Below are positions 10,125-27,328 of a stretch of DNA of 27,328 bases, piece after piece (within the stretch, counting starts at the first letter, position 1; each line of letters begins with the position of its first letter). The translations under genes were made by a program, and so were the position numbers. The DNA is taken from the IMG/VR virus record IMGVR_UViG_3300009788_000265, positions 1 to 27,328 of that record; one strand, given 5' to 3'. The DNA is from a virus. The notes under the pieces were generated by a model, which saw only the letters and a program-made list of their open reading frames with translations, was not told where the DNA came from and did not search any database.

Positions 10125-11105
10125 ATGGTCCAGAACTATCCAATTCCGATCTCCGAGGAGAGTCTCGGCAAGGAAGCCGTGGACATCGACAACGCGTTCG
10201 AGGCGTTGCGTACCAACTTCGCGGCGGCGTCGTTCCCGACAACGCCGGCGCCGGAAGACGGTCAAACGTTTTGGCACAATACGCGCAAGATCCTTTACGT
10301 CTTTGATGGGCTCCTTTCCACGTGGCTCCCTCTTGCTGGAACGATGTTCAGCAAGACGATCACGAACGCAGACACGCCCTACACTCACGGACTTGCCGAC
10401 GGAACGATCTTCGCCGACATGGCGACGGGAGCAATCACGATCAACCTCGCGGCCGCGGCAACTGCTTTCGCTGGCTACCGAGTGACGATTCTACGTAGCG
10501 GCGACGCAGCGAATAATCTGACGATCGATCCGAACGGAGCCGAGACGATCAACGCTGCGGCGACGCTTGTGATTGGCGTTGAATATGAGGGTGTAGTGCT
10601 TGAGTCGAACGGAACGAATTGGCGGATCGTCGCGCAGCATGGGTTTATCCAAGGCGGTCAGAATGTAAGCGGAACCACGTCGATAGCCGGCGACCTCAAT
10701 GTGACGGCTGGCGGGGCTTCTGGGGTTTCGCAGCACAGCCTTCTTGCGGTCAATTCCTGGGAAGGGCTGCCGCCTGATAGTCCGGCACAATTAACGGGCG
10801 ATCAGAATGACTACGCTTTGGGAACCAGGGTCTGGCAGCGTCTCAGTTCTGATGCGTCGAGAACAATAACGGGATTCGTGGCGCCGGCAACTGGCGCTAT
10901 CGAGGAGCCGAGGCTTTTGACGAACGTCGGGTCTAACGATATCATCCTGGCAAACGAAAATGCTGGAAGTTCGGCAGACAATCGAATCATCACGGGGCAG
11001 GCGGCCAACGTCACACTCCGGAGCGATGTTGCCGGTAGCGCCGGTTCGATTTGGATGCTCTACGACGATCTGACCGCTCGGTGGCGCTTGCTCGGCAACC
11101 TATAG
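10125..11105 (+). CDS. Tail fibre-like protein
   Basis: 326 residues; strong ribosome site GAGGAGAAAG before the ATG. The N-terminus (residues 1-60, ISEESLGKEAVDIDNAFEAL, then DGQTFWHNTRKILYVFDG and TWLPL) is a pattern often seen at the start of small phage fibre or collar proteins. The rest is Gly/Ala/Thr/Asn-rich and strand-rich, with two related segments (about residues 80-165 and 235-320) that both run through a NxLTIDPNGAETI- or NDIILANENAG-type strand and end in a W-R-I/L-x-x phrase (NWRIVAQ, RWRLLGNL). This resembles parallel beta-helix or trimeric fibre repeats. Last gene of the tail module; likely receptor-binding or fibre component. Confidence 0.65.
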   Translation: MVQNYPIPISEESLGKEAVDIDNAFEALRTNFAAASFPTTPAPEDGQTFWHNTRKILYVFDGLLSTWLPLAGTMFSKTITNADTPYTHGLADGTIFADMATGAITINLAAAATAFAGYRVTILRSGDAANNLTIDPNGAETINAAATLVIGVEYEGVVLESNGTNWRIVAQHGFIQGGQNVSGTTSIAGDLNVTAGGASGVSQHSLLAVNSWEGLPPDSPAQLTGDQNDYALGTRVWQRLSSDASRTITGFVAPATGAIEEPRLLTNVGSNDIILANENAGSSADNRIITGQAANVTLRSDVAGSAGSIWMLYDDLTARWRLLGNL

Positions 11106-11155
11106 CCCTTGACTTCCGTTCAGGCTTAACCTGGCCGTGGCGCCGCACGACGTTT

Positions 11156-11530
11156 TTACGTTGCTCTGGTCGCCGACGGATCAAGACTGAAAGTGCGCGG
11201 GGATCGTTCACACCTGGCCAGCCATGCGTCGATCCACCCGAGCAGCACGCGGAGGCGGCGGTTGTTCTTCGGGGTAGCGCCGGGGCGAATGCCCTCTATG
11301 AACGTTTCGATTGCTAGCTCCTCACCTGACGGCCTGAAGAGATAGAAATCCTTAAAATGGATATAGGGTCCTGGCGCTGCCAGGTGCGCCAGGACACAGC
11401 GCGAGTCGCCATCGATCAAGGCCGCATCAATCATCCCGGCCCTCACCGCGACCCTCAGCCTTTGGACGTCGGGCGCGGTGACAAGGTCGAAGCACTTGAA
11501 CGCGTCTTCACGGACGGTTTTGAATCTCAT
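11156..11530 (-). CDS. Hypothetical protein, second gene of the leftward operon
   Basis: 124 residues. The start at 11530 is chosen over an upstream in-frame ATG at 11554 because AAGGAGG lies six bases before it; it begins one base after the stop of the upstream gene (TGAAATG), so translation is coupled. The sequence is a compact alpha/beta mix: RLRVAVRAGMIDAALIDGD, SRCVLAHLAAPGP, then SGEELAIETFIEGIRPGA and a C-terminal helix RRLRVLLGWIDAWLARC. I have the impression of a conserved phage family with the I.pGd.P..n......l.Wi..wl ending, but no function is known to me. It is transcribed against all surrounding genes from the operator-containing promoter at 11798-11826. Confidence 0.65.
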   Translation of the reverse strand: MRFKTVREDAFKCFDLVTAPDVQRLRVAVRAGMIDAALIDGDSRCVLAHLAAPGPYIHFKDFYLFRPSGEELAIETFIEGIRPGATPKNNRRLRVLLGWIDAWLARCERSPRTFSLDPSATRAT

Positions 11531-11531
11531 T

Positions 11532-11744
11532 TCAGGCCTCCTTCTTTTCCGCATTAAGTTCGTCCAGGGCTTTATCGCAGGCTTCCATCAGCGCTTGGAG
11601 GGCCTTTCGATCGAGCATCAACTCTACGGCTCCCCTGTTCGAAATGATGTAAATACCTACTTGCCCGATGCGACTGCCAATTGTTTTCACGATCTGAAGA
11701 TTGTCCCTCTTGAGTCCGACCAAGTTCAGCACGCATTTCATCAT
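11532..11744 (-). CDS. Hypothetical small protein, first gene of the leftward operon
   Basis: 70 residues, with two adjacent ATG codons (11744 and 11741). On the reverse strand GGAGG lies 10 bases before the first. Predicted as four beta strands (VLNLVGL, LQIVKTIG, GIYIISN, AVELMLD) followed by one long amphipathic helix (ALQALMEACDKALDELNAE). No helix-turn-helix is visible, so it is not an obvious repressor, although it is the first product of a promoter with an operator-like palindrome. The 5' leader is about 47 bases. Function unknown. Confidence 0.65.
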   Translation of the reverse strand: MMKCVLNLVGLKRDNLQIVKTIGSRIGQVGIYIISNRGAVELMLDRKALQALMEACDKALDELNAEKKEA

Positions 11745-11797
11745 GTCGCCCGATCCTCCATTGGTTCCTGGTCAACCGTTGATAACCATCGCTCCAA

Positions 11798-11826
11798 ATA
11801 TTAGCGTTTGCGCAAAAGATACGCAA
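11798..11826 (-). promoter_or_regulatory. Leftward promoter with palindrome in its spacer
   Basis: On the reverse strand: TTGCGT (-35, 11821-11826), a 17-base spacer, TAATAT (-10, 11798-11803). Expected start near 11791, about 47 bases before the 11744 gene. The spacer carries the operator-like sequence described at 11803-11820. Same geometry as the rightward promoter at 12076. Confidence 0.6.
11803..11820. promoter_or_regulatory. Operator-like palindrome, left copy
   Basis: AGCGTTTGCGCAAAAGAT matches the perfect palindrome at 12082-12099 at 16 of 18 positions. It fills the space between -10 and -35 of the leftward promoter, where a bound repressor would block polymerase. Confidence 0.55.
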
Positions 11827-11868
11827 GATCTTTTTTTGATCGCACCCGGCCGCCCCGTCTCATGGCCC

Positions 11869-11898
11869 TTGACCTACGATCGCTGTTCCGGGTAGACT
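11869..11898 (+). promoter_or_regulatory. Possible rightward promoter for a short untranslated RNA
   Basis: TTGACC (11869-11874), 18-base spacer, TAGACT (11893-11898). A transcript starting near 11905 would reach the terminator at 11962-12005 and be about 100 bases long, with no convincing reading frame. Weak -10, so tentative. Confidence 0.3.
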
Positions 11899-11904
11899 TT
11901 TCTT

Positions 11905-12005
11905 CGAGCAAGATCTCCCGCTGAGTTCCCGCTCACCTTTCGTTCCGCTCCACGTTGCGCGAGCGCCCCGGCTTCTCCCCTCCCCGGCCGGGGCGCTTTC
12001 CTTTT
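11905..12005 (+). ncRNA. Candidate small RNA between the divergent promoters
   Basis: The interval is bounded by a promoter-like sequence (11869-11898) and a strong hairpin terminator (11962-12005). It holds no supported gene and is C-rich. No known RNA family is recognised. The call rests only on the promoter-terminator pairing. Confidence 0.25.
11962..12005 (+). terminator. Rho-independent terminator
   Basis: AGCGCCCCGGC (11962-11972) pairs perfectly with GCCGGGGCGCT (11987-11997), an 11-bp stem with a 14-base loop, followed by TTTCCTTTT. The T-rich tail is on the plus strand only. It would stop rightward transcription entering the control region from the tail side, or end the candidate small RNA. 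Confidence 0.7.
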
Positions 12006-12075
12006 GGCCCAACTGCCCCCAATCTTGGCCGCAATATGACGGCGCAAATAATTCTTCGATAATCGAAAATAGTCC

Positions 12076-12104
12076 TTGCCAAGCGTTTGCGCAAACGCTA
12101 ATGT
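12076..12104 (+). promoter_or_regulatory. Rightward early promoter with perfect palindrome in its spacer
   Basis: TTGCCA (-35, 12076-12081), a 17-base spacer, TAATGT (-10, 12099-12104). Expected start near 12111. The first well-supported gene start is at 12160, giving a leader of about 50 bases. It heads the rightward run of early genes. Confidence 0.6.
12082..12099. promoter_or_regulatory. Operator-like perfect 18-bp palindrome, right copy
   Basis: AGCGTTTGCGCAAACGCT reads identically on both strands and occupies the promoter spacer, its last base being the first of the -10. Related copies are at 11803-11820 (16/18) and 24875-24892 (14/18). Confidence 0.65.
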
Positions 12105-12159
12105 ATTGGTCATGGACACGAAGATGACAGCGCAGACGATGGAGAAGAAGGGGGACGAG

Positions 12160-12504
12160 ATGGGAGCCGGAGAAACCAAGGTGAGGATGATTCGTTTCGC
12201 GGACGGCGGCGAAGAGCATGCGCCGTTCGTAGCGTTGATGATGGATGCGCTAAAGAGATTGTTCGATGAGGAGCCCATGGCGTTCCTGGAGTTCGTCGAG
12301 AAGTGCCGCGACTCGGGCCACAAGTTGTTCGGCAACTCATTTACATTACTCAGGAGGCATCAAGATCTTTTCATTTCGCACGACGGCAAAATCAACGATT
12401 CAATTCGTCGAATCGTTCTCCATCAAGTGACGGGCGAAGGTCTTGGAATGACCATCAGTCCGATAATCGCCGCACCGGTCGAGGAGATAGGGGGTCCACG
12501 ATGA
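12160..12504 (+). CDS. Hypothetical protein, first gene of the rightward early operon
   Basis: 114 residues from ATG 12160, chosen because GAAGGGGGA lies five bases before it; in-frame ATGs at 12112, 12124 and 12139 have no comparable ribosome site, and 12112 would be nearly leaderless. The middle (ALKRLFDEEPMAFLEFVEKC, then HKLFGNSFTLLRRHQDLF and DGKINDSIRRIVLHQVTGEG) alternates helices and a strand in a way I have the impression of seeing in other phage early proteins of unknown function. The DG..hd.iR.Ivl..v.G phrase resembles a small winged-helix ending, but this is only suggestive. Its position directly after the operator-bearing promoter makes it a candidate immediate-early product. Confidence 0.6.
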   Translation: MGAGETKVRMIRFADGGEEHAPFVALMMDALKRLFDEEPMAFLEFVEKCRDSGHKLFGNSFTLLRRHQDLFISHDGKINDSIRRIVLHQVTGEGLGMTISPIIAAPVEEIGGPR

Positions 12505-13819: not shown

Positions 13820-14062
13820 ATGGGCGATCTAAGGCGATACGTTGATCTTCTGATCGCCGGACGAATCCTCAATTTCCAAAAACAATGGCCCTGGGAATTC
13901 AAAGGCGACTATCCCGGTGGCTATTCGGAATGGGTTAGGCGTTCCGCTCAGAATCATCAATGCAGCGAGCAGGGGATCCGCGATTGCGTCGACTCCGCGA
14001 AAAAACGATTCGCCGAGATGGATAATCCAGGCCGAGAAGAGGCCAACCGACTACAAATGTAG
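13820..14062 (+). CDS. Hypothetical small protein
   Basis: 80 residues; AAAGGGGGTGATAACGG before ATG 13820 is a strong ribosome site, and the start lies six bases after the preceding stop. Helical, with a WPWEFKGDYPGGYSEWVRR aromatic segment (residues 23-41) and a C-terminal helix QGIRDCVDSAKKRFAEMDN. No domain recognised. The stop is two bases before the parS-like palindrome. Confidence 0.55.
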   Translation: MGDLRRYVDLLIAGRILNFQKQWPWEFKGDYPGGYSEWVRRSAQNHQCSEQGIRDCVDSAKKRFAEMDNPGREEANRLQM

Positions 14063-14064
14063 GC

Positions 14065-14082
14065 ACGTTTCACGTGAAACGT
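14065..14082. promoter_or_regulatory. parS-like centromere palindrome
   Basis: ACGTTTCACGTGAAACGT is an 18-bp perfect palindrome. Its inner 14 bases, GTTTCACGTGAAAC, are identical to the core of the chromosomal parS site bound by ParB (bacterial consensus TGTTTCACGTGAAACA); only the outermost pair of that 16-mer differs (C and G instead of T and A). No parA or parB gene is in the window. Confidence 0.6.
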
Positions 14083-14120: not shown

Positions 14121-14180
14121 GGCCGAATTTCAGCGCATAGCGCAACATCAACAACGGGAGATGGAACCATGACCGAAGAG
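14121..14180 (+). repeat. Gene-leader direct repeat, copy 1
   Basis: A stretch covering the ribosome site and first codons of the 14169 gene is repeated at 14478-14533. Both copies contain GCGCATAGCGCAACATCAA in full and share GGCCGAA before it, an AACG-rich GGAG site after it, and ATGACxGAAGAG-like first codons. Confidence 0.7.
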
Positions 14181-14477: not shown

Positions 14478-14533
14478 GGCCGAACAGCGCATAGCGCAAC
14501 ATCAAGAACGAGGAGCGATCACATGACGAAGAG
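14478..14533 (+). repeat. Gene-leader direct repeat, copy 2
   Basis: Second copy of the leader at 14121-14180, about 355 bases downstream, again spanning the ribosome site (CGAGGAGCG) and first codons of a gene (14523). Confidence 0.7.
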
Positions 14534-24918: not shown

Positions 24919-25170
24919 ATGGGAAAGAAAAAGAAGAGGGGACCGCCGACGCTTCATGAGAAGATCGTTGCCGCGCTTGGATATGACAGGGAAGCACCCA
25001 AGAGCTACGATGTCGTGACTTCTACGTTCGAGGCAATGAAGAAAAGGAAGGATCTTCCCAACTATTCGCCGAGCGCGATCTATCGATACCTGAGAGGTGA
25101 GTCAGGTGGATCAACGAGGTTGATCGGGGCGCTGATGGATCTCGCGGGTTTGTCGGTGGTATCGAAATGA
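24919..25170 (+). CDS. Small helix-turn-helix-like protein, candidate Cro/CI-type regulator
   Basis: 83 residues from ATG 24919 (AGGAAGAAGGG upstream); a TTG at 24898 would add seven basic residues. A Lys-rich start (residues 2-10) is followed by an all-helical body. The segment NYSPSAIYRYLRGE, then STRLIGALMDLAGLSV, has the form of a Cro/CI-type unit: a S.saI.rylrGe recognition helix, a loop, and an L..la.llGv helix. Scoring by eye only; the match is suggestive. It has its own strong promoter with an operator-like palindrome that also occurs at the divergent promoters, so it may be the regulator of all three. Its stop overlaps the next start (ATGA). Confidence 0.55.
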   Translation: MGKKKKRGPPTLHEKIVAALGYDREAPKSYDVVTSTFEAMKKRKDLPNYSPSAIYRYLRGESGGSTRLIGALMDLAGLSVVSK

Positions 25171-26946: not shown

Positions 26947-27328
26947 ATGCCTGATCGATCCGACGAGCAATATCCGATGCTTCCGCCGTTCAAGGTCAAC
27001 TGGCTAATGCGATCAATGAGCCAGACGGTGGACAAGGGACACGCGATCCATAACATCCCGGCCGCGTGGAAGCGAGCGCGGGGGAAGGGGATTAAATTTG
27101 GGATTGCGGATACGGGCCGTCCCGTGCATCGGGATTTAGAGCCGAACATCGCTTCAACGAATAACCTAACGAACGATCCGCTGGAGGATCTCGTTTCAGG
27201 GCATTCGACTCATTGCGCAGGAATTATTGCCGCAGTCGATAACGACGAGGGTGTGGTCGGTGTTTGTCCCGAGGCGCGGCTCTTCTTCGCGAAGGTTCTT
27301 AACGATAACGGAAGCGGCTCGGATCGTC
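26947..27328 (+). CDS. Subtilisin-like serine protease (S8), 3' end outside window
   Basis: 127 residues visible from ATG 26947 (AGAAGGGTAAC before). There is no signal peptide. WKRARGKGIKFGIADTGRPV with Asp55 is the catalytic aspartate block of S8 peptidases (usually aiiDTGi...Hpdl, here VHRDL). GHSTHCAGIIAA with His86 is the catalytic histidine block. VVGVCPEARLFFAKVL matches the gvaP.a.l...kVl segment. The catalytic serine lies beyond the window. The start is short for a prodomain, so the enzyme may be made active in the cytoplasm or loaded into the virion. Possible roles are head-maturation, host-protein cleavage, or a defence-related effector; the window does not decide. Confidence 0.85.
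   Translation, partial: MPDRSDEQYPMLPPFKVNWLMRSMSQTVDKGHAIHNIPAAWKRARGKGIKFGIADTGRPVHRDLEPNIASTNNLTNDPLEDLVSGHSTHCAGIIAAVDNDEGVVGVCPEARLFFAKVLNDNGSGSDR

Follow-up and report, generated by a model that had tools for sequence, protein, structure and literature searches.

The window analysed here is the entire IMG/VR record IMGVR_UViG_3300009788_000265, a linear stretch of 27,328 bases that is probably a fragment of a phage genome and has a GC content of 56%. A rightward block of large open reading frames (ORFs), extending up to position 11105, includes tail genes (tail-tip J, minor tail protein L and fibre/baseplate). It is followed by a leftward unit of two small ORFs (11744-11156), the second of which is convergent with the tail genes. 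A 415-base gap separates these leftward ORFs from a second rightward block, which encodes an HNH nuclease, an SNF2-type helicase, and primase-like and UvrD-like helicase genes. Both promoter candidates described below sit in this gap. A tRNA search found none, and a host search with the tail-tip protein yielded no host from proteobacterial, Acidobacteriota-side or actinomycete samples.

11156-11554, minus strand: second ORF of the left unit, 132 aa; no above-threshold family match
11532-11744, minus strand: first gene of the left unit, 70 aa, ATG at 11744 after GGAGG; no above-threshold family match
11798-11826, minus strand: left promoter candidate, TTGCGT (11826-11821), 17-nt spacer, TAATAT (11803-11798)
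11803-11820: left operator candidate, AGCGTTTGCGCAAAAGAT, a 16/18 match to AGCGTTTGCGCAAACGCT
11963-12005, plus strand: terminator-like element, a GC-rich hairpin followed by TTTCCTTTT, T-rich
12076-12104, plus strand: right promoter candidate, TTGCCA (12076-12081), 17-nt spacer, TAATGT (12099-12104)
12082-12099: right operator candidate, the perfect palindrome AGCGTTTGCGCAAACGCT with a CG centre
12160-12504, plus strand: first gene of the right unit, 114 aa, ATG at 12160 with AGAAGGGGG upstream; no above-threshold family match

The two promoter candidates face outward, the left on the minus strand and the right on the plus strand. Both are called promoters by sequence resemblance only, because their hexamers are weak and a consensus promoter scanner lists neither of them. 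In each, the palindrome spans all 17 nt of the spacer and the T that opens the -10, at an identical offset to the -10. In the left copy the half adjoining the -10 is intact, and both of the two changes fall in the far half. An earlier note on this DNA had described two divergent promoters with the same palindrome in a 17-nt spacer at the same -10 offset, and our analysis confirms this arrangement, with one exact and one 16/18 copy. The note had also remarked that neither first gene encodes an obvious helix-turn-helix (HTH) protein; this too holds, as family searches gave no HTH match for the first gene of the left or of the right unit. A structure model of the right-unit first gene was too poor for use (pLDDT 45).

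The start codons at 11744 (minus) and 12160 (plus) are both preceded by Shine-Dalgarno-like sequences and lie at similar distances from the operator centres, ~68 bp on the left and ~70 bp on the right. Assuming that transcription starts ~7-8 nt past each -10, the leaders would be ~47-48 nt on both sides. If translation began instead at an in-frame ATG at 12112, the right transcript would be almost leaderless and the right operator would lie ~22 bp upstream. Inside the gap, the stem of the hairpin at 11963-12005 is present in both the MFE and the centroid structures, and the single Rfam match over it, to 6C, is sub-threshold; the hairpin could insulate the right promoter from rightward read-through out of the tail genes. 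As a separate observation, a consensus-like plus-strand promoter, TTGACC-N18-TAGACT, lies at 11869-11898, with the strong hairpin and its T-rich tail ~65 bases further on; the stretch 11869-12005, between the divergent promoters, is thereby a possible small RNA of ~100 nt.

Repetition of the palindrome in register

Perfect 18-bp palindromes are expected at ~0.1 per 27 kb and two are present in the window. A lone one is unremarkable; the significance of the palindrome studied here rests on its repetition in register. At up to three mismatches, only these two copies occur in the 27,328 bases and none in 100 dinucleotide shuffles, and the pattern TTGC-N19-TAATNT is likewise confined to the two promoter candidates, with no third occurrence in the window. 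An inverted-repeat search further showed that the window's longest inverted repeat is formed by the two promoters themselves (41 nt at 80%), with the following arms:

11800-11840: left arm, comprising the operator, the -35 and the upstream A-rich tract
12062-12102: right arm

Within a 606-bp region, the best ungapped inverted-repeat score was 25, as against a maximum of 14 among 300 shuffles. Identity between the left and right sides is 16/18 over the palindrome and 5/6 over the -10, then 11/22 over the upstream A-rich tract and ~16-30% farther out. The two in-register copies, with none elsewhere, and the longest inverted repeat count for a pair of operators as the most likely reading. That one factor acts on both promoters, as the earlier note had proposed, is also the most economical account of the register, the uniqueness of the copies, the 41-nt inverted repeat and the shuffle test.

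A palindrome of this kind could also be coincidental, carried along when a promoter was duplicated by inversion, with no factor acting on it. The expected frequency of perfect 18-bp palindromes given above speaks for this possibility, and the second copy could stem from duplication of the whole promoter, as the 80% identity over 41 nt would allow. However, conservation is highest precisely over the palindrome and the beginning of the -10, with an unbroken run (TTTGCGCAAACGCTAAT), whereas the neighbouring sequence has diverged to ~50% or less; we consider coincidence quite improbable. It is highly improbable, in our judgement, that the inverted pair serves as an origin of replication or as a recombination element rather than as a pair of operators. 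Such an element would be in keeping with the long inverted repeat, the A-rich tracts, the large divergent gap adjoining replication genes and the change of sign of the GC skew over 11001-12000. Nevertheless, the similarity is confined to the promoters (-45 to -10) in a promoter-like register, there are two copies only and these are not iterons, and the skew changes sign because of the two leftward genes, which counts against an origin. The origin was set aside on these grounds.

Searches for relatives of the region had little to offer. Among viral contigs, DNA patterns and five protein queries returned only unrelated palindromes or homologues of ~26-35% identity; among phage genomes, neither a blastn search with the region nor a tblastn search with the right-unit first gene gave a match; and among plasmids, the one tblastn match to the same gene was weak and not significant (E 0.3). 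Sixteen unrelated viral stretches contain the palindrome's 16-bp core, one exact copy in each and without the promoter arrangement, and we read these occurrences as chance. No viral contig has the core joined to TAATNT.

The window's second perfect 18-bp palindrome, ACGTTTCACGTGAAACGT at 14065-14082, is intergenic and lies directly after ORF 13820-14062. Its 14-bp core, GTTTCACGTGAAAC, is identical to that of parS, the bacterial ParB centromere site; no ParB gene was recognised among the window proteins scanned. The parS-like sequence CGTTTCACGTGAAACG occurs in at least 119 viral stretches with many different flanks, compared with 16 stretches for the 16-bp core described above, and such sites look over-represented in virus contigs, mostly with one per locus. 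Two further features lie downstream. A 26-bp direct repeat, CAGCGCATAGCGCAACATCAA(C/G)AACG, is 96% identical between its copies at 14131-14156 and 14485-14510, each just upstream of the ATG of one of two neighbouring genes, and is a possible repeated leader element. The open-ended ORF 26947-27327, which reads GHSTHCAGIIAAV... and lies where the fragment ends, resembles a subtilisin-like serine protease, as judged by eye from its motif.

Candidate factors for the two sites

Two findings go beyond the earlier note, namely the identity of the palindrome with operator-like sites of the LacI family in actinomycetes and the presence of a small XRE-like HTH protein at 24919-25170. Each leads to a specific version of the operator-pair explanation that names the factor.

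The exact 18-mer AGCGTTTGCGCAAACGCT was searched for in 84,980 bacterial and archaeal genomes and occurs in 84 genome stretches. In 66 of these, which do not amount to 66 independent events as the Amycolatopsis matches are largely one orthologous promoter, a LacI-family gene begins 27-139 bp downstream of the 18-mer. The stretches come nearly all from actinomycetes, mostly Amycolatopsis and other Pseudonocardiaceae, and also Actinomadura, Actinotalea and Streptomyces. Pfam searches on the loci checked found LacI HTH and sugar-binding domains, with a divergent sugar-binding protein in two loci. By way of control, a LacI-family gene was nearby in 0/27 unrelated viral loci and in 0/60 loci carrying near-matches in two proteobacterial classes. 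The 18-mer is a conserved element at some LacI-family gene promoters, and its position there suggests that in actinomycetes it serves as the LacI protein's own operator. A survey of LacI-family motifs describes the typical site as an even palindrome of 16-22 bp, centred on CG and located 30-140 bp from the start codon (PMC4052901). The phage sites fit these features, being even 18-bp palindromes with a CG centre, ~68-70 bp before start codons. The likeness to the putative LacI/GalR-family operators of actinomycete repressors of sugar transport extends from the identical 18 bp to its even symmetry, CG centre and distance of 30-140 bp before the start. The setting is different: in actinomycetes the element precedes the LacI gene itself and is often extended to GCAAGCGTTTGCGCAAACGCTTGC, whereas the phage has two sites in the -35/-10 spacers of divergent promoters and no LacI gene in the fragment.

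The factor may therefore be a sugar-responsive LacI-family repressor, encoded by the host or by the phage outside the fragment, which would hold both units off until a sugar signal arrives or repressor is lacking. We see this as conceivable, if unlikely. Besides the position of the 18-mer in 66/84 stretches, the LacI-type repressors and divergent sugar-binding proteins at the loci checked and the fit to the surveyed motifs, there is a precedent for host metabolic control in the repression of phage T1 promoters by cAMP-CRP (PMC6737242). However, no LacI domain was found among the proteins of the window, and the matching sites belong to high-GC actinomycetes, to which no link of this 56% GC phage was found. 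The match of a CG-centred palindrome to a LacI operator could also have arisen by convergence. A LacI regulon of proteobacteria sharing this operator was rejected: in samples of alpha- and gammaproteobacteria, 2-mismatch sites only modestly exceed a reversed-pattern control, and 0/60 loci read lie near a LacI gene. In an open-access subset of the literature, we found no report that ties a LacI-family repressor to the control of phage promoters.

The second candidate is encoded by the phage itself:

24919-25170, plus strand (that of the right unit): small XRE/Cro-like HTH protein, 83 aa, candidate trans-acting factor

Its profile match to HTH_31 (E 0.0084) is below the cut-off, and an AF2 single-sequence model reaches a pLDDT of 75. 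The top structural matches of this model are mostly XRE proteins, among them HipB, C.Esp1396I, ClgR, TP901-1 CI and Aca1, at Z ~3.7-5.8, where values below 8 are not conclusive and lie under the level that the tool calls safe; Foldseek gave no match with E below 0.001. We regard it as possible, though doubtful, that this protein is expressed from the right unit and acts as a negative feedback regulator of the Cro or Aca kind, shutting both promoters. The HTH_31 hint, the model, the predominance of XRE proteins among the best structural matches and the location of the gene on the right unit's strand, downstream of the right promoter, are consistent with such a role. On the other hand, the gene lies 13 kb from that promoter, the structural scores stay below 6 and Foldseek adds nothing significant, and the 5' end of the gene carries no copy of the palindrome.

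A putative two-site switch and its known counterparts

We envision the locus as a divergent operator-promoter pair, in which one dimeric protein on the spacer palindromes probably blocks RNA polymerase at both sigma70-type promoters and so switches the two units together. From the sequence, we infer that the promoters are active, that the palindrome is an operator, that its occupation is repressive and that a single factor is responsible at both sites. A dimer on the palindrome would span the -35/-10 spacer entirely, together with the first -10 base, and would thereby exclude RNA polymerase. One factor would then jointly switch the two leftward genes and the rightward early/replication unit. 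Because the right site is perfect and the left site matches it at 16/18, the right site would be bound more tightly and the right (replication) unit is predicted to be more strongly repressed. Candidates for the factor would be a LacI-family repressor of the host or of the phage outside the fragment, the XRE-like protein at 24919-25170, or another repressor encoded in the missing part of the genome. Against a pair of operators stand the silence of the promoter scanner at both promoters, the absence of a LacI gene from the fragment and the lack of any relative found. Alternatively, an activator or a nucleoid-type protein could just as well use the spacer palindrome.

The earlier note had likened the locus to a lysis-lysogeny or early-late switch, a comparison that finds no support here. 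No integrase, partition, immunity-repressor or adjacent repressor gene is seen in this incomplete fragment, the right unit leads into helicase/primase-type genes, and the left unit consists of two small ORFs without a family match. Divergent operator-promoters are a known arrangement in themselves. In mycobacteriophage BPs, OR is located between the -10 and -35 of PR (PMC4557955), and the OR/ORep region shares with the present locus its divergent phage promoters and a palindromic operator in the -35/-10 spacer of an early promoter. However, in BPs the repressor gene adjoins the region, the operator is a 12-bp palindrome accompanied by a variable second half site, and sites are scattered across the genome, whereas the fragment has only two 18-bp sites, one per promoter, and no adjacent repressor gene. 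Lambda OR/OL likewise places divergent units under promoter-overlapping operators, but the fragment has no adjacent cI/cro pair, no tripartite operators and no lysogeny genes seen. Phage T1 under cAMP-CRP (PMC6737242) would be comparable in function, should both units be under a host sugar regulator; there the regulator is CRP, not a LacI-type protein, and control is experimental in T1 but inferred for this fragment.

What is new at this locus is the identity with a LacI-promoter sequence and that no obvious cognate repressor lies nearby. The phage may have adopted the operator of a LacI-type sugar repressor in both promoters, with a host or captured LacI coupling early transcription to the sugar status of the host, an idea that we put forward as speculative and rather improbable. 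If the sites are real operators, they would represent a compact two-site switch in an uncultured phage for which no close relatives were found. If the factor is the phage's own XRE protein, this would amount to ordinary feedback control. If it is a LacI-type sugar repressor, the phage would be a rare case in which early genes are tied to host carbohydrate status via LacI rather than via CRP or SOS.
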